Source: Fibrobacteres bacterium CG2_30_45_31 (GTDB taxonomy: Bacteria; Fibrobacterota; Fibrobacteria; Fibrobacterales; Fibrobacteraceae). Taken from it: a stretch of 35,296 nucleotides of DNA. Position numbers and translations under genes: made by a program. The notes beneath the pieces are model-generated. The model had not been told where the DNA came from and did no database searches. It worked only from the letters and a program-made list of their open reading frames with translations. The stretch lies in NCBI GenBank assembly GCA_001873075.1, contig MNYL01000192.1, positions 1 to 35,296 on the forward strand. The letters are read 5' to 3'. Of the stretch, positions 7,631 to 33,397 are shown in pieces; position 1 is the first letter of the stretch, and every line of letters begins with the position of its first letter.

Positions 7631-7674
7631 GCTCGGCCAATTTCATTCCCGCAAACCAATTTTTAGGGGCTCCC
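7631..7674 (+). repeat. Divergent copy of dispersed repeat (GCTCGGCC...CGCAAACCAATTTTTAGGGGCTCCC)
   Basis: Matches the conserved end of the repeats at 14169-14201 and 33364-33396 with a few mismatches. Confidence 0.55.
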
Positions 7675-14040: not shown

Positions 14041-14201
14041 GGTCACCTCTAAAAATTCTTTTTCTGCCAAATTGGCTGTGGCACATCGCCATAGTTCGTT
14101 GCTCAAAGTGGCGAATAACACCATTATTAGCCACTTTTCGCGCCTGCTCTGGCTCGGCCTCGCTCAATTTTGCGGTCGCAAACCAATTTTTAGAGGTGCC
14201 C
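14041..14201. mobile_element. MITE-like ~161-bp element with terminal inverted repeats and a central hairpin
   Basis: Left end GGTCACCTCTAAAAATT, right end AATTTTTAGAGGTGCCC; central AAAGTGGCgAATAA-cacca-TTATTaGCCACTTT; both pairs are centred near 14121. Confidence 0.55.
14169..14201 (+). repeat. Dispersed repeat core, identical to 33364-33396
   Basis: TTTGCGGTCGCAAACCAATTTTTAGAGGTGCCC, 33 bp identical at two sites ~19 kb apart. Confidence 0.9.
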
Positions 14202-14217: not shown

Positions 14218-16557
14218 ATGAAAATCCGAATTCTTACAAGAAGTGTTCTCATCCTACTTTTTGCCGGGGCAATGTTTGGGGCATTTGCAGCAGAAGGGGA
14301 CGCTTACACTTGGCCAACGTATTCGTCCAAGCTAAATTACAGCTTCAAAGACGCTGGGATTACTTATAGCAAGCCCACAAAGGACGTCAGCGGAACCTGT
14401 GTGAATGCAGCAAAAAGCGCAAATGGAGTTTACCATGGGAATTATTGGGCATTCTATCATGGAGCCAATAAGAATTCGCTCGTTACCGAAGCTTCGATTA
14501 CACCCATGCTTGCGCGTTTTGACAAGGATTTTTCTTATATAACCGATACTTTGGGCTGGCCACGCGATAGCCGTGTAAAGGATGGTTACTACAGCTCTAT
14601 TTATTTGTATGGTTCTGATGCCTGCACAGGCTCTAACAGCCCTTTGGATAGTGGTGGTTGGCAGTCTTCGATCGATGGTTATCCTGCTGTTGCCGCCTCT
14701 TTTTATCCTGTTTACAGCTATGATCCTAATTGCCCATACGGCGACAAGGTAAGCCAGCAAGGCGCCATGATCCACGAAGGCATCCATGCCATTCTTACCA
14801 ATCTGGGAGCCGCGCACGTGCATTGGTTCCAAGAAGGAGGCAACACCTGGCTTCAGCAAGAAATGGAAGTGCGCCGCAGTACTGCAACTCAATATTCCGG
14901 TATGGGATTCTTGAATGTGGGTAATTTGATGGCTCCGTTTGTGCCTATTGAAAGCTATTCTGGCTGGCTTTTGGACGGCTCTTTTGGCGGCCCTGGCGCA
15001 GAAGGCGTGGATGCTGGCCAAGGGATATGCAATTGGCGCAAAACTTTGGGCGGTGTGCAGTATGGCAACTTGTTCCCGACTTTCCTCGGCCTCTGGGTTG
15101 CGGAAGGTGCTGTGCCTTGGATTTGGGTGAGCATTCCCAACTATAACGGTCAATACATTCTGGAATCCATGGCTGCGGCAATTGGTGGTAGCGAAGTCCG
15201 CAGCATTATTATGGAATATCGCGCAAAACTCGCCATGCTCGACATGAAAAAATGGTCCGAAGAAATGCGCTCGCTCCTCAATCAACAGGTAGGAGGCTCT
15301 ATCGGTTGCGAATGGACTCCTTGCGCTGTCAATAATGTGGCTTCCTGGACGGTGACGCCGTACGTTGTGACAACGGAAAGCAATGGGGTTTTAACTCCTG
15401 AAGCCCGCACCACTCCAGGTTGGTCCGGAGCGAACGTAATTCCGCTGACCATTAATTCGGGAGCGACGCAAGTGAAACTTTCCCTCCAAAATGCAAGCAC
15501 AAGCATGGGGCTTCAGATTGCTTATCGTGCAACGGACGGAACTCCGATTTATAGCACGCCGATATTTGGCAATAATCAGGTGGTCCTCAATTTAAGCAAA
15601 GCTCCTCAAGGAAATGTCGTGTTTGCTATTATCACTAACACCGATTATGATTATGTAGGAGACGTTACACGCACCACACATCACTCTTATCAATTAAAAC
15701 TTGATGCCGGTATTTCTGCCAAAGCAGACCCCTATACAAAATGGTATGACAATTTCAATCTGGACTATGATTGGGATAACGCAAAAATTGTCACCTCTAC
15801 AAATTCTTCGTCTTCTGTAACTTCAAATTCTTCATCTTCCGGTACAAGCTCTTCGTCTTCTGTTGGCTCTGCAACGACAATTACGTACAACGTAAATATT
15901 CCTATTTCTAATGATTACAGCGGGACTTCTATAAATGTGGACTTTGATCCGATCGCTTCCGGGCTTGGAATTTCCGCATCAGAAATTACAGCGTCGATGA
16001 TTCAGGGTGTCAATGCAGACGGCTCCTTATCTACCGGGAATACGGCGGCTGGTGATGCGGGCCATTGGTTCGCAGCAAATGGTGATGTTGTAAGCTGGAA
16101 TGAAACGACGGCTTACATTTTTGCCGAATGGACTATTAGTTCAAAGACTGTAAAAATTGGACATTACCCAAACAAAGTCTTGGATGGTGAAACTTATGTA
16201 GTTCGCCAAGCGGTGAGTTCTGGTACAAAGCAAATGATTGTTGAATATAAAGTTTCTATCGGTACGACGACTATCGCCGAGGGTTTTACTGATTGGAGGA
16301 AGGATCTGGACATTGCTTATAAAAATGGACTCATTTTAGCGAATTACAATGTGGAAAAGGCTGGCAAGGTAAAAGTCGCTATCTACACAGGCTTCGGTGC
16401 CTTAATTCAGAATGTGGTAAACGAATATCAGCCTATCGGTACTTATTCCAAGCAAATAGACTTGAAAGCGATGGGCTTGCCAAAGGGCGTCTATCTCATC
16501 AGACTCTCTTATCCGGGGCATTCTGAAACGCGGGCGTCTATCTCTTCCTATAAATAA
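14218..16557 (+). CDS. Secreted protein with HExxH metallopeptidase-like domain, Ser-rich linker, DUF4859-like domain and C-terminal tail
   Basis: Signal peptide; GAMIHEGIHAILTNLGAAHVHWFQEGGNTWLQQEME; linker TNSSSSVTSNSSSSGTSSSSSVGS; NVNIPISNDYSGTSINVDFDPIASGLGISASEITASMIQGVNADGS resembles DUF4859; tail GLPKGVYLIRLSYPGHSETRASISSYK. Confidence 0.75.
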   Translation: MKIRILTRSVLILLFAGAMFGAFAAEGDAYTWPTYSSKLNYSFKDAGITYSKPTKDVSGTCVNAAKSANGVYHGNYWAFYHGANKNSLVTEASITPMLARFDKDFSYITDTLGWPRDSRVKDGYYSSIYLYGSDACTGSNSPLDSGGWQSSIDGYPAVAASFYPVYSYDPNCPYGDKVSQQGAMIHEGIHAILTNLGAAHVHWFQEGGNTWLQQEMEVRRSTATQYSGMGFLNVGNLMAPFVPIESYSGWLLDGSFGGPGAEGVDAGQGICNWRKTLGGVQYGNLFPTFLGLWVAEGAVPWIWVSIPNYNGQYILESMAAAIGGSEVRSIIMEYRAKLAMLDMKKWSEEMRSLLNQQVGGSIGCEWTPCAVNNVASWTVTPYVVTTESNGVLTPEARTTPGWSGANVIPLTINSGATQVKLSLQNASTSMGLQIAYRATDGTPIYSTPIFGNNQVVLNLSKAPQGNVVFAIITNTDYDYVGDVTRTTHHSYQLKLDAGISAKADPYTKWYDNFNLDYDWDNAKIVTSTNSSSSVTSNSSSSGTSSSSSVGSATTITYNVNIPISNDYSGTSINVDFDPIASGLGISASEITASMIQGVNADGSLSTGNTAAGDAGHWFAANGDVVSWNETTAYIFAEWTISSKTVKIGHYPNKVLDGETYVVRQAVSSGTKQMIVEYKVSIGTTTIAEGFTDWRKDLDIAYKNGLILANYNVEKAGKVKVAIYTGFGALIQNVVNEYQPIGTYSKQIDLKAMGLPKGVYLIRLSYPGHSETRASISSYK

Positions 16558-21569: not shown

Positions 21570-24500
21570 GTGATTACGAATAAATTAAAGAATTTTTCCC
21601 TGGCGGGCCTCTCTATAAATCAATTTAGTGTCAGAATGGCTTTGATTCTTCGTCGCTTCTCATGCCGGATTCCGCCTGATCAATTTGGTTTTATTTCTTG
21701 CAAATCAACTTTCAGAGGTGCCCTTGCATTACTTTCCGCTGGGGGCTTGGTGTTGGCAGCAACTCCCGTAATCACGGTAGATTTCGATCAAAGTGGCAGA
21801 CAAATGAGCGAAGTCACAGAATCCAATTATACCCCATGGGTGGTGACAGGAGTTACTTCTGCCGATACGACTTTGGAAAATGTGAAAATTACCATTTCAA
21901 AGTCAGGGAGCGCAGGTACGGCACTTGCGACCAATTGGTATAAGACCGGGGTCCAGTCTCCTTACTATGCAAAACTTGTGTGCGATGGTATCTATGTCGC
22001 AGACGGCAATTCCGGCGGGGCCATTCAGCTCCAATTTGACAATCTCCCTGCGGGGACGCACACGCTTTTAACGTACCACAATAATGTGGACAGTCCAGAT
22101 GCTTACACCTTCAGCAAGGTCGATGTCTCGGTCAATGGTATCAAGCAGGAGACCATCACGCCGACGACCCGGGCGACTTCCACAGCGGAAGCTGCCACTT
22201 CTTTTGTTTCGTTCACGGTGGCTGCTGGCGGGAGAGCCACCATTCTCTATACGCCTTCTTCTTCAGCGACTTTCAAAAACGTGCTAATCAATGGTTTTGC
22301 TCTCAATGTGGTGAATAGTGCAAAACAGGCACAAAATCCTTCACCTGCAAATCTTAACGATCATGCGGAAGCAACGAGCGGAACTTTGACTTTGAGTTGG
22401 AATGCGGCGAGTGGGGTTAGTTCTCACCAAGTTTATTTCGGCACGGATTCCCTTGCGCTTACGACAGCGACAACCCTCAGCAGTTATTATCAAGGGTCAC
22501 AGACAGGAACTTCATTTAATGCTTCCGGTCTTTACATAGGAAATACTTATTTTTGGCGTGTGGATGAAGTGGACGCTTCGGGCACGGTGACTTTAGGGAA
22601 TGTGTGGCGATTCCGCATTGCTCGTCTTGCCTTTGAGGGGGCTGAAGGCTACGGTCGTATGGCTCGCGGGGGTCGTGGCGGTCAAGTGGTTTATGTGACG
22701 AATCTGAACGATTCAGGCACAGGAAGTTTGCGCGATGCGGTTGAAAATGATATAGGGCCTAGAACTATTGTTTTCAATGTCGCGGGAGTGATTGCGCTTC
22801 AATCCCGGCTTTCGCTGAGTAGTTCATACGTTACGGTGGCGGGGCAGACGGCTCCAGGCAAAGGCATTACTATTCGAGCGGCTCCTTTTGGAATGAGTGG
22901 TGGATCGGATAATATCATCCGTTTTCTCCGCGTACGTCTTGGTGCCGGACAGACGTATGACGGTATGGGCATGGCGGGGAGCAACTTTTCCATTTTGGAC
23001 CATTGCTCCATTAGTTGGACCATTGATGAAGCCTTTAGTTCCCGTAATTCAAAAAATGTGACATTGCAACGGACCTTGATTTCGGAAGCCTTGAATATTG
23101 CAGGTCATCAGAATTATCCCGCAGGGACCGCTCACGGCTATGCGGCTACCATTGGTGGTGACATCGGTAGCTTCCATCACAATTTGCTCGCGCATAATGA
23201 GGGGCGCAACTGGAGTATGGGAGGAGGCCTTGATGGTGATGGTTATTATGCGGGCAAACTCGATATTTTTAATAATCTCGTCTATAACTGGGGCGGTCGT
23301 GCTACGGACGGTGGCGCAAACCAAGTGAACTTTGTGAATAATTATTATAAAGAAGGTGATGCGACGAGGTTGCATAGTATGTTGATCGCAAATCTTGAAG
23401 GCAAAGGACAAGGCTCGCAGAGTTATTATTATTCGGGCAACGTTTTGCAGGCGGCATCGGGGAGCTTTACTTGCGATGGAACGAATAACGAATGTGGTCG
23501 TGCATACACGATTGCAGAGACCCAAGTGCTCGATTGGACTCTTTGGGTAAACAAACCATTTTTCCCCTCGTATGCGGCCATTCAGACGGCGAAGCAGGCT
23601 TATAAAGACGTTCTTTCCGATGTGGGCATGAAAATGCCTGTATTGGATGATCACGACACGCGCATTATTAAGGAAACCAAAAATAGAACCTATACCTACA
23701 CGGGAAGCGTCTCTGGATTGGAGGGCCTTCCCGATGATGAAGATGATGTGGGTGGGTATGAAAGTTATCCATCCGTCTCTTGGGCGGACTCGTATGACAC
23801 CGATCGGGATGGGCTCCCGAACTGGTGGGAAAAAATGTTTGGTCTGGATACAAATTCGACTTCGGGCGATTTCTCTAATGCCAATAAAGATCGCGACGGC
23901 ACAGGCTACACAGAACTGGAACGCTTCTTAGAATGGCTCGCCACTCCGAATTACAAATTTGACGGAACGGAATCCCAGGTTATTGATCTCAGCGCTTTTA
24001 CCAAAGGTTATGACAATGGAACGTATTCATTAGTCTCTGTTCCGAGTCATGTGACGGCTTCCATTTCGGGAACCAAACTCACGGTCGCCTTACAATCCAG
24101 TTTTGGAGGTGCTGCCTACATCACCTGGAAAATAATGGATAGCGCGGGCGATACCTTTACACGCAGAATCGGGATTCGCGGGGATGCCGCAGCCTCGGTA
24201 TCCGCTCCCACGCTCACTAAATGTGGTGCTGGCAGCTCTTCGCAGTCTGTCCTCAAGGATAGTGCCATTACCGATTTCTGCTATACATGGACTGGGGCAA
24301 CCACCGTCTCTGTAGCAGGTTTCCCTTCCGGGATCGGGATCAGCATTGATAATGCGGCTCAAAAGGTAAATATAAGTGGTTATGCGCAAGATGACTTAGG
24401 TGCTTATCCATTTACGGTGGTCACTGTGGGTGGTACTTCAGAAGTCACGAAAAAAGGAACCATTACGATTATGGAATCTTCAACGGCGCTGAATATTCTC

Positions 24501-25588: not shown

Positions 25589-26092
25589 TTTTACCTCAAT
25601 AGAACAAGTATTAACCTATAACGGTAGAAATTATTTGAAGTGTCTGAGACTACATTTTTTTAGTGAAAAAGAATTTCCGCGTTCTCTATTCACGAAAAAC
25701 ATCGTTTTGAATTTGGTTCGACAAGTATCCATCTCTTTTCGCTCTGTCATAGAGGAATTTGTATATAAAAATTCTTTTTTTGTTGGTTTGCCTCCCTTTA
25801 ATGGCACTTGCACAAAATACCCTTACCGCGGCAGTCAGATTGCCATCGCAGGCACCAATGAGGTCATGGTGGATGGCGATTATTTATGGTACACCGACAC
25901 TTCTGGGACAATAGCAAATAAATTTTTACATATGGACACGCTTTTTTATGCGTCGTAATTCATTTTGTTGACGTTTTATCCATGACTTTTTTTAGTTTTT
26001 CTGCCATGGGGGGCATTTGATTTTATTTTAAGCAGGTCTTATGGCCGTTAATGGCTAGTTATAATCGATGGGTATAACCACAAGGATTGTCT

Positions 26093-28273
26093 ATGACATC
26101 AATGATACGGATAAAAACAACTACGTTATTGTGGCTATTGATAAGTATTCCTTTGTTTGCCGCAAATGTTGGAATTGATCTCAGTAGCGAAAAACAAAAG
26201 ATCACAGGCTTTGGTGGCATGAATTTTCCGCGTTGGATTGCAGATCTTACTGAGGCGCAGGCAGACAAAGCTTTTGGTGTGGGCGATGGCAAAATAGGTC
26301 TTTCTGTTTTGCGTATCAGTGTTGCTCCTGTGGAAAGTGACTGGAGCAAAGAAGTGACTACCGCTAAACGTGCGGTAAGTTATGGGGCTTCCGTATTTGG
26401 GACCCCTTGGTCACCTCCTGCTTCCATGAAAACTAATGGTAACATCGTAAAGGGTGAACTGAAGACGAGTTCCTATGCTGATTATGCTACATACTTATCA
26501 AAATTTGTGAATTACATGAGTACAAATGGAGTGGATTTGTATGGAATTTCCATTCAGAATGAGCCGGACTGGTTACCTGATTATGAATCCTGTGGCTGGA
26601 GTGCGACTCAGATTTACAATTTCATCAAAAACAATGCGGGTGTTATTCCCACAAAGGTTATTGCTGCGGAAGGGTTGGGCTTTAACAAGGCTCTTACCGA
26701 TCCTGTTTTAAATGATGCGACTGCTGCGGCAAATATTGACATTGTGGCGGGGCATTTATACGGAACCACTCCTTCTGATTATCCGCTTGCCCGTAATAAG
26801 GGTAAAGAGATTTGGATGACGGAACATTACACTACCAGTGATATCAGCGCGAATTTATGGCCGGAAGCACTTGAGGTGGGCAAAGAAATTCATAATGGCA
26901 TGGTGAGTTATTATAACGCTTATATCTGGTGGTATATCCGCAGAAGTTACGGCTTGATCACAGAAGATGGCAATGTCTCAAAAAGAGGCTATGTGATGAG
27001 CCACTTTTCAAGATTTGTGCGTCCGGGTTATGTGCGTGTAGATGTTAACGCCACGCCGGCCACCAACGTTTTAGCTTCCGCTTACACCAAAGATGGCAAT
27101 CTGGTGGTTGTCCTCACCAACTCGAACTCTTCTACCAGTAACTTAACGTTTGATATAAAAAATGCAACGACTAGTGTTACTTCTTTCAAAAAGTACACAA
27201 CGTCTTCGAGCAAGAATGTCAGTGATGATGGTTCTGTTGCGGTAACCAATGGAACGTTTAGCGTATCGCTGGATGCCTCCAGTATCACCACCTTGGTTTT
27301 CACTGCCCCTCTGGGGACACCCACTGTGGCTATTACTGCGCCTGTGAGTAACGCAAGTTATGAAGCTCCCGCTACAGTTGAAATCGCAGCCACTGCGACT
27401 GACCCCGATGGCACCATCTCCAAAGTGGAATTTTATAACGGAACGACCAAATTAGGGGAGGATGCCACATCGCCCTATACATATTCCTGGACAAATGTAG
27501 CTGAAGGCTCCTATTCCATTACGGCGGTCGCTACAGACAATGAGGGTAAGACGGCGACATCATCAGCGGTAACTATTCAAGTCCATATTCCCCAGGCTCC
27601 CTATAGTGGCACATCATGGACAATTCCGGGAACCATCGAAGCTGAAAATTTCGACGTGGGCGGTGAAGGTGTAGCTTATCAGGACAACGAAACAGAAAAC
27701 AGGGGCGGAGCCTACCGCACAGACGAAGGGGTTGACATTGAAGGGGATGCCACCAATGGATACATGGTTGGCTACACAATTACTGGTGAATGGCTGGAGT
27801 ACACGGTGAACGTGGAGAATGCGGGTACCTACATATGGAAAGCCAACGTGGCCTCCGGCGGTTCCACAGGAGCCTTCCATCTGCTTATTGACGATGTTGC
27901 TATCACGGACACCGTTAGCGTTCCTAACACTGGCAGCTATACTACTTATACCACTGTGACCGATACAACCCCGGCTCTTACCGCTGGTAACCACGTTATG
28001 CGTCTTGTGGTGGACGGAGACTACTTCAACATGGACTGGATCACCTTCTCGAATGGAACTGTTTCCATTAAACCGGAATTAGCGGACAAATGGTTGCATA
28101 ATTCGGGAACTTACCAGGTTTATAATCCTCTGGGAGTGTTTCTCGGCTCTGTAAATCTCGCTGCAGGGGAAAGCATTGAGAAACAAGTCGGGCGACTGAC
28201 TTCACAATCCGGGACATTCCTCGTTAAAGCAAAAAATAGTAGTAAGTCCTATTTGATCCACGTCCGTAAATAG
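26093..28273 (+). CDS. Secreted GH30 (subfamily 8-like) glucuronoxylanase with bacterial Ig-like domain, CBM6 and C-terminal tail
   Basis: ITGFGGMNFPRWIADLT, YGISIQNEPDW (acid/base), EIWMTEHY (nucleophile), YIWWYIRRSYGLI; CBM6 IPGTIEAENFDVGGEGVAYQD...YFNMDWITF; start at ATG 26093 behind aagga. Confidence 0.9.
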   Translation: MTSMIRIKTTTLLWLLISIPLFAANVGIDLSSEKQKITGFGGMNFPRWIADLTEAQADKAFGVGDGKIGLSVLRISVAPVESDWSKEVTTAKRAVSYGASVFGTPWSPPASMKTNGNIVKGELKTSSYADYATYLSKFVNYMSTNGVDLYGISIQNEPDWLPDYESCGWSATQIYNFIKNNAGVIPTKVIAAEGLGFNKALTDPVLNDATAAANIDIVAGHLYGTTPSDYPLARNKGKEIWMTEHYTTSDISANLWPEALEVGKEIHNGMVSYYNAYIWWYIRRSYGLITEDGNVSKRGYVMSHFSRFVRPGYVRVDVNATPATNVLASAYTKDGNLVVVLTNSNSSTSNLTFDIKNATTSVTSFKKYTTSSSKNVSDDGSVAVTNGTFSVSLDASSITTLVFTAPLGTPTVAITAPVSNASYEAPATVEIAATATDPDGTISKVEFYNGTTKLGEDATSPYTYSWTNVAEGSYSITAVATDNEGKTATSSAVTIQVHIPQAPYSGTSWTIPGTIEAENFDVGGEGVAYQDNETENRGGAYRTDEGVDIEGDATNGYMVGYTITGEWLEYTVNVENAGTYIWKANVASGGSTGAFHLLIDDVAITDTVSVPNTGSYTTYTTVTDTTPALTAGNHVMRLVVDGDYFNMDWITFSNGTVSIKPELADKWLHNSGTYQVYNPLGVFLGSVNLAAGESIEKQVGRLTSQSGTFLVKAKNSSKSYLIHVRK

Positions 28274-28429: not shown

Positions 28430-28616
28430 CCCAGACTGGAAGAACAGCTTGACAGAAAACATCAGGGACTCCCCGGATTCTCATCCCGGACGTGCCAAAA
28501 AAAGCAACAGCTATTATCAGAAAAGGAAACTACACAACCTGTTTTGTAAGCGCGCAGGCATAGAGCCGACAATCGGGCACCTGAAATCGGATTACAGGCT
28601 GGGACGCCATTTTTAG
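28430..28616 (+). pseudogene. C-terminal remnant of an IS5/IS1182-like DDE transposase
   Basis: KRKLHNLFCKRAGIEPTIGHLKSDYRLGRHF* matches the conserved RxxIEPxIGHLKSDxRLxRN region; rest missing. Confidence 0.65.
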
Positions 28617-28624
28617 AGGTGCCC
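28608..28624 (+). repeat. Partial copy of dispersed repeat end abutting the transposase remnant
   Basis: cATTTTTAGAGGTGCCC; AGGTGCCC pairs with GGGCACCT at 28575-28582. Confidence 0.55.
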
Positions 28625-28952: not shown

Positions 28953-30644
28953 ATGGGTGTTTCAAAAGTTTTGGCAATTACGGCTGTGGTGTGCTTGAAT
29001 GCGTTTGCGACAACCAATCAATTCCGTGGCGTTAATTGGGCTGATAAGCGAGATAACTTCGTTTCGGATGTACTCTTAGTGTCTGGAATCTCGTTTACTG
29101 ATACTTATGAATCAGCCTCCGTCATCGCGGAACGTGTCGTTGGAGAGTTCGTTAGATTGCTAGGAACCAATAGCGTGCGTTTGCCTATCAACGAGCCAAC
29201 CGTTTCCTCTTTCTGGAGTACTTATACCGGAGTGATTGATGTTGCGTTGACCAAGGGACGCGTAGTGCTCGGCTACTGGGGGCCAAGTCAGCCTTCAGGC
29301 CCCAAGAGTATGGATGATTTTTGGGCTATGTGGGCAAAAGTCGTAAAGGCTTATGGAGGCAACCCTAATGCCTATTTTGAAATTTTCAATGAACCGCATA
29401 TGTACAAGGCTGATGAATTGCGAAGCCTTTATGCTACTTGGCTTGAAAAGTTCCCGGAAGTTCCTCGGGATCATGTTATTCTAGATGGTTCCGGTTTGGC
29501 ATGGAACATTCCAGATATTGCCGATGATAGTCGCTTTGATGGATGCTTTTTTGCCGTTCATGATTATTCTTTCTGGGCAAGCATAGAAACCGAATCGGGC
29601 TGGAGAAATCATTTTAAGGGCTTAGTGGGAAAATACTCGGATCGTACTATTTGCACGGAATGGGGCGGCCCTATGGGAGCGGGTTCCAAAAATGGCGTTT
29701 ATTATGATTCGATGGATTACAACCAGTCTTCGAGCAACTTCTTTATGGCTTACATCCGCGGCATGACGGAGCAACTCCGCGAGTGGCAAATGGGCAGCTT
29801 CTATTGGGTTGGCCTTAGAGATGGCGACTGGTACAGCATGACAAAGCGCACGGGCGAGGGCGATAATATAAAACTTGAAATTGTGAACCAGTCCGGAGTT
29901 GACCGGATGCATTATTCTTGGACTGATACGGTGGAGGTTGTCTCCTTAGTTCAAGAACCCTACGAAGGCGAGCCTGCATTGATTCCCGGCAAAATTCAGA
30001 TTGAAAACTATGATTTGGGGGGTAACCAAGTTTCGTACTACGATAAGGATGCCGATAATAAAGGTGGCGAATACCGCAAAGATGGAGTTGATATTACAAA
30101 GGATTCTACAGGGAACTATATCGTTGGCTATACGGAAGCTGGCGAATGGCTGGAATATACGGTGAATGTGAAAGCGAAAGGAATGTACAAGGTCTCCGCC
30201 CGCGTATCTTCTGGTTCGGACAATTCCTCGTTTATTTTGTTCATAGACGGCAAAGCCATTTCGGACACGATTAAAGTTCCCAATGGTGGAAATTGGACTG
30301 ATTATACGGAAGTCTTAGGAAAAACGTTAGAAATTGCAGAAGGTTCTCACGTGCTGAAAATTCTGATTACAGGAAACTATGTTAATATGGACTGGATCGA
30401 ATTCAAGGACAACGCAATGACAAACATCGAAAATCGCCCAGCCTTTAAGAAAGGTACTGATAGCGGACAATTGACGTATGATGTTTTTGACTTCTGTGGC
30501 AAGTATCTGGGAATGTTTAAGTCTTCTGCACAAATTAATTTATCCAAAGGGGCACAAGAAATTGTCCGCAAGTCTGGAATCTACTTGGTAAAATCCCGGA
30601 ATAGGTCAGAAATTTATAAGATTTCTGTCATAAAAGAAAATTGA
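28953..30644 (+). CDS. Secreted GH5 family glycoside hydrolase with CBM6 and C-terminal basic tail
   Basis: FEIFNEPH (acid/base), TICTEWGGPM (nucleophile), FFAVHDYSFW; CBM6 IPGKIQIENYDLGGNQVSYYDKDADNKGGEYRKDGVDI...NMDWIEF; start at ATG 28953 in frame with the 28917 ORF call. Confidence 0.85.
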   Translation: MGVSKVLAITAVVCLNAFATTNQFRGVNWADKRDNFVSDVLLVSGISFTDTYESASVIAERVVGEFVRLLGTNSVRLPINEPTVSSFWSTYTGVIDVALTKGRVVLGYWGPSQPSGPKSMDDFWAMWAKVVKAYGGNPNAYFEIFNEPHMYKADELRSLYATWLEKFPEVPRDHVILDGSGLAWNIPDIADDSRFDGCFFAVHDYSFWASIETESGWRNHFKGLVGKYSDRTICTEWGGPMGAGSKNGVYYDSMDYNQSSSNFFMAYIRGMTEQLREWQMGSFYWVGLRDGDWYSMTKRTGEGDNIKLEIVNQSGVDRMHYSWTDTVEVVSLVQEPYEGEPALIPGKIQIENYDLGGNQVSYYDKDADNKGGEYRKDGVDITKDSTGNYIVGYTEAGEWLEYTVNVKAKGMYKVSARVSSGSDNSSFILFIDGKAISDTIKVPNGGNWTDYTEVLGKTLEIAEGSHVLKILITGNYVNMDWIEFKDNAMTNIENRPAFKKGTDSGQLTYDVFDFCGKYLGMFKSSAQINLSKGAQEIVRKSGIYLVKSRNRSEIYKISVIKEN

Positions 30645-31426: not shown

Positions 31427-33298
31427 ATGAATAATGATAAGCAGAGTCAATTACGTTGGCTGTTTTTCTTTGTAATGACAGGCATAGTTTTTCAATACAA
31501 CGTAACTGCTGGGACTGGGCCGTGCGACATTTATGCATCGGCAAATACACCCTGCGTTGCTGCTTATAGTACGGTAAGAGCTCTTTACGGTAACTACAGT
31601 GGGAATCTCTACCAAGTGAGACGCATTTCTGACAATGCGACCAAGAACATTACTCCTCTGTCAGCAGGAGGTGCGGCCAATGCCGCCGCGCAAGATGCTT
31701 TCTGTTCTGGAAAATCCTCCTGCACCATTTCGATTATTTATGATCAGACGGGTAATGGCAATAATCTTACCAAGGCACCGGGCGGAAGTGAGATTTATGG
31801 CTCAGAAGATGATATTGAGGCTGTTGCCGATTCGCTCCCTGTCTATATTAACGGAAACAAGGCCTATGGGGTTCATGTCACCCCAGGTTCCTGCTGGACA
31901 TGCGGCGGTCAAGTAGGTTACCGAACCACTACATCCAAGGGGATCGCTACGGGCGATAGTCCAGAGACTACTTATATGGTGACTGACGGCACCTACTACA
32001 ATGGTTCTTGCTGCTTTGACTTTGGGAACGCTTTGATGACACCCACTGCGGGTGCCAATGGTTCGATGGATGCCATTTATTTTGGAAGTTGTGACTGGTG
32101 GGACACGGGTGCTGGCGATGGTCCTTGGATCATGGCGGACCTTGAATCGGGTGTGTATAATATGGACGGTGTCGCTAAAGCCAATAACAGTAAAGATATT
32201 TCATTGCCCTACCCGTTTGTCACGGCAATGCTCAAGAGTAATTCGAACGGTGCAACCACTGGCGGCCCATTCACAATCAAGGGTGGAAATGCGAAGTCGG
32301 GATCTCTCCAGACGATGTGGGACGGGGCGCGCCCCACGAACTATGCCGTCATGCACAAGGGAGGGGGCGTTGTCCTTGGAATTGGCGGTGATAACAGCAG
32401 TACGGCAAAAGGGAATTTCTATGAGGGTGTCTTGACGAGTGGCTACGCAACCACTGCTACGGATAATGCTATCCAGGCGAACATTGTGGCTGCCCGCTAT
32501 GGCGAAACCACTACTGTGATATTAAGTTCTTCTAGCACCACATCCTCTTCCAGCGTTGAATCTTCTTCCAGCACAGTGTATTCTTCTAGTGTTCAGGGGT
32601 CTAGTAGCAGTTCGGCTATTGCGGAAATTGCCTACAGCGTGGCCAATATTCCAGGAACCATTCAAGCCGAGAATTATAATATTGGCGGTGAAGGCGTGTC
32701 TTATCATGACACTGAAACAGGGAATAGCGGAAGCCTCTACCGCACAGATAACGTGGACATAGATACTGTGACGGTCGGTGGTTATACTTTGGGTTGGCTT
32801 GTTGCTGGGGAATGGACTGAATATACGGTCAATAGCACTACCGCTGGAACGTTGGCTTTCCATGCCAGGGTCGCCTCTGGAGGAGACGGAGGAGCTTTCC
32901 ATCTGGAATTAGACGGCAGTCCTATCACTTCTTCGATTTCGGTTCCCAATACGGGTAGCTATACCACTTATCAGACCATTGACGGAGAGGTCAGCGGGTT
33001 GATTCCGAGCTCCCATATGTTGCGGATTGTAATTGATTCTTCTTATTTCAATATTGATTGGATTCAATTTGGAGACGCTAATGTTTCCATTGGGTCAGTC
33101 CAAAATTTTAGAACAATGGAAATTCGTGAGTATCAGGTATTTGATTTGGATGGAAAATATCTGGGGATGGTGACGGCTAGTGATTATCTGGATATTCGCT
33201 CTGCACTGAGAAAGAAATTTCCTCAGCCCGGCGTGTATATTGTACGGTATCGCTTACGGGGGAAGACTACGCAAAATCTGGTGGTGAATTCCAAATAG
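31427..33298 (+). CDS. Secreted GH54-like alpha-L-arabinofuranosidase B with Ser-rich linker, CBM6 and C-terminal basic tail
   Basis: GPCDIYASANTPCVAAYSTVRALYGNYSGNLYQVRR, IYDQTGNGNNLTKAPGG, GPWIMADLESGVYNM, LGIGGDNSSTAKGNFYEGVLTSGYAT; linker SSSSTTSSSSVESSSS; CBM6 IPGTIQAENYNIGGEGVSYHD. Confidence 0.9.
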   Translation: MNNDKQSQLRWLFFFVMTGIVFQYNVTAGTGPCDIYASANTPCVAAYSTVRALYGNYSGNLYQVRRISDNATKNITPLSAGGAANAAAQDAFCSGKSSCTISIIYDQTGNGNNLTKAPGGSEIYGSEDDIEAVADSLPVYINGNKAYGVHVTPGSCWTCGGQVGYRTTTSKGIATGDSPETTYMVTDGTYYNGSCCFDFGNALMTPTAGANGSMDAIYFGSCDWWDTGAGDGPWIMADLESGVYNMDGVAKANNSKDISLPYPFVTAMLKSNSNGATTGGPFTIKGGNAKSGSLQTMWDGARPTNYAVMHKGGGVVLGIGGDNSSTAKGNFYEGVLTSGYATTATDNAIQANIVAARYGETTTVILSSSSTTSSSSVESSSSTVYSSSVQGSSSSSAIAEIAYSVANIPGTIQAENYNIGGEGVSYHDTETGNSGSLYRTDNVDIDTVTVGGYTLGWLVAGEWTEYTVNSTTAGTLAFHARVASGGDGGAFHLELDGSPITSSISVPNTGSYTTYQTIDGEVSGLIPSSHMLRIVIDSSYFNIDWIQFGDANVSIGSVQNFRTMEIREYQVFDLDGKYLGMVTASDYLDIRSALRKKFPQPGVYIVRYRLRGKTTQNLVVNSK

Positions 33299-33363
33299 TT
33301 GTTGGGGTGAGATGGAACATGCCATCTATGAGGGATCAGAGTCACTAAGCGCTGAAGCACAAG

Positions 33364-33396
33364 TTTGCGGTCGCAAACCAATTTTTAGAGGTGCCC
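33364..33396 (+). repeat. Dispersed repeat core, identical to 14169-14201
   Basis: TTTGCGGTCGCAAACCAATTTTTAGAGGTGCCC. Confidence 0.9.
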
Positions 33397-33397
33397 C

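Follow-up and report, generated by a model that had tools for sequence, protein, structure and literature searches.

A probable non-autonomous IS5-type MITE of rumen-type Fibrobacter with hairpin modules at fixed core positions

The window analyzed here is a 35,296-nucleotide stretch (contig MNYL01000192.1) of Fibrobacteres bacterium CG2_30_45_31, a rumen-type Fibrobacter whose draft genome (hereinafter G000; GCA_001873075.1) comprises 2.09 Mb in 272 contigs and is 71% complete. An identical 33-mer occurs in it at 14169-14201 and 33364-33396, as an initial annotation had reported and as we verified for both coordinates; the 24-mer core of this repeat has 4 matches in the window at up to 3 mismatches, against 0 in 100 dinucleotide shuffles. 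The 33-mer forms the right end of a MITE that is 161 bp long, non-coding and two-ended, of which the window holds the following copies, parts and neighbors:

7631-7674, + strand: decayed right end, core columns 112-161 (E=1.8e-07)
14041-14201, + strand: intact 161-bp core MITE with no modules (core profile 1-161, E=1.4e-54)
14041-14057, + strand: left terminal inverted repeat GGTCACCTCTAAAAATT (17-bp end search)
14185-14201, - strand: right terminal inverted repeat, reading GGGCACCTCTAAAAATT on the - strand (17-bp end search)
21605-21723, + strand: decayed, internally shortened copy (right part E=3e-06, left part E=0.058)
28488-28619, + strand: remnant of the C-terminal part of an IS5_1 transposase (IS5 family), stop included (NF033578 profile 353-395, E=2e-7)
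28608-28624, + strand: 16/17-nt match to the right end, of uncertain membership (E=0.31)
33304-33319, + strand: short, probable module A remnant read by eye, GGGGTGAGATGGAACA (module A: GGGGTGAGGATGGAACA)
33323-33364, + strand: module D remnant, module positions 20-61, 86% identity (E=1.8e-09)
33357-33396, + strand: copy carrying the second 33-mer; core right end, core columns 122-161 (E=2e-08)

The intact copy is flanked by TCAT and TAAT, an imperfect 4-bp duplication, and its right edge lies 16 bp upstream of the ATG of the ORF at 14218. The copy at 33357-33396 lies 1 bp from the stop codon (33398) of a - strand ORF and has the module D remnant directly to its left; we infer that it is the decayed right part of a module-bearing composite, preserved as the module A remnant, the module D remnant and the right end. 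Copies lie at most a few bases away from a stop or start codon, in line with the initial description of a dispersed repeat at gene boundaries, and our searches likewise found no named family for it. The diverged copies listed in that description also exist, with the first starting one base off the position given (it spans 7651-7674) and the second matched by the core profile at both ends, weakly; the third is a short match adjoining the transposase remnant, and its membership in the family is uncertain. This TIR-like 17-mer sits directly at the end of the IS5_1-type remnant. Elsewhere in the window, repeated coding stretches of the GEWLEYTVNV type, which we take to resemble CBM6-like carbohydrate-binding modules, occur in three neighboring ORFs (27623-27811, 29982-30167 and 32648-32833).

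We compared G000 with Fibrobacter sp. UBA1313 (hereinafter G001; 78% complete), a sister species of the same genus with which shared loci are mostly 93-94% identical; the counts below derive from searches and retrieved stretches of these two draft assemblies. The 24-mer core occurs at 38 places in G000 (reversed control: 0), 21 of them forward and 17 reverse, such that the uniform + orientation noted originally is a chance property of this window. The 17-bp end GGGCACCTCTAAAAATT occurs at 61 places in G000, and pairing of these ends yields a 161-bp unit with 17-bp inverted ends. Far from being restricted to the window, the MITE has about 40 copies across G000 and further ones in G001. Among 59 distinct complete copies from the two genomes, 33 are flanked by exact 4-bp duplications and 12 by duplications with one mismatch; the duplications are AT-rich (TTTA, TAAA, TTAT, ATAA, TTAA, TCTA and similar). 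Empty orthologous sites are found in both directions between the two species, a site filled in G000 being empty in G001 (L018; TTTATAAAAGG) and one filled in G001 with duplication TCAA being empty in G000 (L270), and therefore demonstrate transposition. Separately, comparison of window positions 25654-25898 with L289 showed that G001 has a decayed right part of the MITE upstream of the orthologous gene, where the window lacks it. The earlier notion of an element that is one-ended or defined mainly by its right end fails on these complete two-ended copies, their 4-bp target duplications and the empty sites; left ends are missing in the window owing to decay and to internal modules, which increase the distance between the two ends.

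The element accordingly shows the hallmarks of a MITE: it is short with terminal inverted repeats (17-bp ends on a 161-bp core), generates a 4-bp target-site duplication, as also seen from the empty sites, and lacks its own transposase, both the cores and the composites of up to 600 bp consisting of core plus hairpin modules. Its copies occur in all gene orientations. We conclude that it is a real, active-looking IS5-type MITE with ordinary ends and an unusual, modular interior. Folding of 33 cores gives one rod of 49 pairs, of which 23 have pairing-keeping changes on both sides; the main structure is not the small palindrome pointed out earlier (GTTTGCGGTCGCAAAC) but the single long hairpin formed by the whole element. 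Such compensatory changes can arise through selection or through template switching within the palindrome. Searches of Rfam gave no match for the element at gathering score; a copy from another genus (L319) has a sub-threshold match to proV (27.7 versus a cutoff of 88.5).

The same ends delimit complete insertion sequences in other Fibrobacteraceae, namely a 1253-bp element in G003 (L090; 342-aa transposase, duplication AGGA) and a 1255-bp element in G062 (L105; 335-aa transposase, duplication TAAA). Both transposases score above the NF033581 (IS5 family) cutoff and contain the DDE_Tnp_1 domain, their named relatives at about 50% identity being IS1168, IS1169 and IS1194; further, IS5_4-type transposase pieces adjoin the same end at L147, L161 and L169. 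Hence, the MITE agrees in both its ends and its 4-bp duplication length with a derivative of the NF033581 subgroup. Its core resembles L090 and L105 only over about the terminal 20 bp, and no internal sequence of the kind a deletion derivative would retain is common to them. No homologue of the IS5_4 transposase was found in the draft genomes G000 or G001; the search for an autonomous partner proposed in the initial annotation was thus successful in related genomes (G003 and G062) but not in the element's own. A partner in the same genome is classic for MITEs but not required, and IS elements tend to get lost from draft assemblies. With same-ended IS5 elements present elsewhere and none found in G000 or G001, these sequence relationships suggest that an NF033581-type transposase of the IS5 family mobilizes the whole MITE in trans, modules included. 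The IS5_1 (NF033578) transposases were considered as partners and rejected: the genomes with intact genes above the cutoff (G005, G014, G100 and G104) have no copies of the terminal inverted repeat. In rumen MAGs of Lentisphaeria (L119-L157), we saw a distinct MITE of 164 bp that shares the end sequence, has 4-bp duplications and is present in many copies.

Composite copies, 209-600 bp long, differ from the bare core in alignment by insertions at fixed core positions, which define seven module types:

Module A: core position 28, mostly 92-98 bp
Module E: core position 55, 72 bp
Module C: core position 73, usually 81 bp
Module G: core position about 84, 34-80 bp
Module B: core position 97, 75 bp
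Module D: core position 107, 49-72 bp
Module F: core position 118, about 78 bp

As a rule, no core bases are lost or duplicated on insertion, and the direct repeats at the junctions are just 0-2 bp. Among the 59 complete copies of the two genomes, 34 are bare cores and 25 bear between one and six modules, the seven types being combined in about 18 ways; exact tandem pairs of module A are also seen at that module's site, and in decayed copies some modules are shortened. Among copies, module divergence is 0.08-0.10, as against 0.14-0.19 for the cores that carry them, and for modules A, E and C the module distance is uncorrelated with the core distance (5-9 copies per comparison); modules therefore seem to spread among already diverged cores. 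Exact modules A-F were not found as free copies in G000 or G001, where they occur only within intact or decayed MITEs. Several module A copies (L250, L273, L282 and L294) lie at contig ends, and the repeat therefore probably breaks draft assemblies.

Two orthologous pairs differ precisely in module content between the species. The first is a 233-bp copy in G000 with module D only (L012), whose 554-bp ortholog in G001 (L085) has modules A, E, C, B and D. Their common parts show about one difference in 233 bases, and both contain a private variant, AAAGTGCTGAA, absent from the other loci compared. This variant resides in the 20-bp core segment between modules E and C, 3-4 bp from the module C junction, and is kept although the two flanking modules differ. 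In the second pair, the G000 copy (L019), which is otherwise decayed, has modules A and E, and its G001 ortholog (L263) has none; both have the unusual end ATACACC. Two further shared copies have the same module content in both species (L002/L139 and L022/L269), and another has decayed through imprecise deletion (L023/L266). The L012/L085 pair favors exact insertion or excision over recombination between copies. In another genus, G046 has a composite (L319) with a 161-bp core 99% identical to a bare core of that genome and six inserts, at core positions 31, 55, 69, 87, 97 and 139. Positions 55 and 97 are the sites of modules E and B, and 31, 69 and 87 lie within a few bases of the A, C and G sites; most of the inserts have the canonical fold with unrelated stem sequences. 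The first insert (position 31, in L319:443-1200) is 217 bp long, much longer than module A, and contains several nested hairpins.

Relatives of the modules also occur outside the MITE. Many Fibrobacteraceae have the inner 37 nt of module B as a free-standing sequence, with matches in 40 of 111 genomes, and a degenerate hairpin pattern (conserved letters CTCGG..ATG..CAAG..CGC..CTCG) was recovered in 10 of the 11 genomes tested and never in reversed controls. At the positions of the inner hairpin left unconstrained by the pattern, 91% of cells pair; column shuffles give 58% (sd 1.5). In G092 and G067, a solitary copy forms a 79-bp insert within a gene, presumably of the ORF6N type, with a 0-bp duplication and empty orthologous sites in several genomes. 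A common fold, a small stem-loop followed by a long hairpin, unites the solitary copies with modules B, C (reverse strand), E and G (five solitary copies were folded, and the minimum-energy forms of two are not of this shape); module F carries the same motif, and modules A and D fall outside the common fold. We accordingly propose that modules B, C, E, F and G probably descend from a Fibrobacteraceae-wide class of hairpin elements of about 70-80 bp whose insertion leaves no target duplication. Y1 (IS200-type) transposases are present in 44 of 111 related genomes; we dropped adjacency as an argument for them as the source of the hairpins once the loci showed that the hairpins next to Y1 genes had inserted into copies of IS200. 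Both G000 and G001 have a solitary hairpin with diverged stems close to the start of a gene for an IS200-type transposase (L410 and L422).

Taken as a whole, we regard the element as a non-autonomous IS5-type MITE with modular inserts, with a probability of about 0.8. Under this reading, an NF033581-type transposase acting in trans would move the entire element including its modules, and each of the types B, C, E, F and G would have entered the MITE at its own site and then been carried along by transposition; their further spread and loss would proceed by exact insertion and excision or by recombination between copies. It is possible, though less probable, that the modules instead entered once, long ago, with their patchiness due entirely to recombination (gene conversion) that full and bare copies undergo with each other. 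The single site of each module type and the presence of modules at positions 55 and 97 in another genus, which indicates that they may be old, speak for such a history, as do the roughly halved divergence of modules relative to their cores and the failure of A, E and C divergence to track that of the cores, both being expected under homogenization. However, with the private variant of L012/L085 only 3-4 bp from the module C junction, exchange would need breakpoints within a few bases. An ancestral element loaded with all modules, from which bare cores arose by repeated precise deletion of hairpins, for instance through replication skipping, would suit the hairpin nature of the modules and the existence of precise absences, but is unlikely given junction repeats of at most 2 bp, a majority of bare cores, modules younger than their cores and the imprecise deletions in L023/L266.

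We consider it improbable that the element is mainly a structured RNA (an attenuator, mRNA stabilizer or sRNA) with copy number secondary: the conserved rod with its 23 compensated pairs and the proximity of copies to stop or start codons fit such a role, but the pairs could also stem from template switching, Rfam offers no match, all gene orientations occur, and the marks of transposition are clear. The initially suggested one-ended remnants of a larger catalogued IS would explain why the ends match IS5-family elements; yet the restriction of shared sequence with L090 and L105 to about the terminal 20 bp, and the fact that the copies are complete at both ends and have duplications and empty sites of their own, make this extremely unlikely. 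Returning to the non-autonomous MITE with modular inserts, we tentatively entertain, as a possibility on the doubtful side, that the modules are mobile hairpins recognized by shape and not by sequence, which enter and leave exactly and without target duplication, the IS5-type MITE serving as their multi-site docking platform. The hairpins might then constitute an undescribed Fibrobacteraceae class, likewise a speculative assignment, defined by a small stem-loop plus a long hairpin, a length of about 70-80 bp and freely varying stems.

We found no paper on MITEs or palindromic repeats of Fibrobacter. Like other IS5-family-derived MITEs, the present element is short and non-coding, with inverted ends and duplication length common to an IS; it differs from them in its seven optional fixed-site modules, its whole-length compensated fold and the fact that its own draft genome yielded no partner. 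Bacterial repeats in which a single internal segment is optional are already known. The pneumococcal BOX element has the organization boxA-boxB(n)-boxC, with boxB absent or repeated and folding apart from the rest (PMC3049150); it is likewise a modular intergenic repeat, and the tandem module A parallels the repeated boxB, but its sequence is unrelated and it has one repeated middle unit where we find seven different modules, each at its own site. In place of boxA/boxC ends and boxB middle units, our element has IS5-type ends and seven unrelated module sites. Correia/NEMIS elements occur with and without one 50-bp internal segment (PMC2229807), as against seven optional modules here, and differ in ends and host. 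A further comparison is afforded by the REP/REPIN palindromes with their RAYT/IS200-type transposases (PMC3116915, PMC3733652), which the solitary relatives of the modules resemble as small hairpins inserted without target duplication, as is seen for the 79-bp insert and at the fixed MITE sites without core loss. Unlike in REP/REPINs, the stems here preserve pairing although their sequence is free to change, and no GTAG or CGTC tag was found at the foot among the module or solitary hairpin sequences examined. The location of hairpins beside Y1 genes is explained by their insertion into IS200 copies.

What appears new is the presence of seven independent optional modules at fixed sites in one MITE, a combinatorial design that we did not find described, in which orthologous positions of two species sharing about 94% identity differ in the modules present. 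As a practical matter, it comes with a warning that such repeats probably break metagenome assemblies. For biology, the MITE amounts to a natural experiment on the entry and exit of small hairpins in DNA, and it points towards a class of hairpin elements that spans the family and is conserved in structure but variable in sequence; should the reading of shape recognition prove true, one transposon would carry interchangeable passengers at fixed places.
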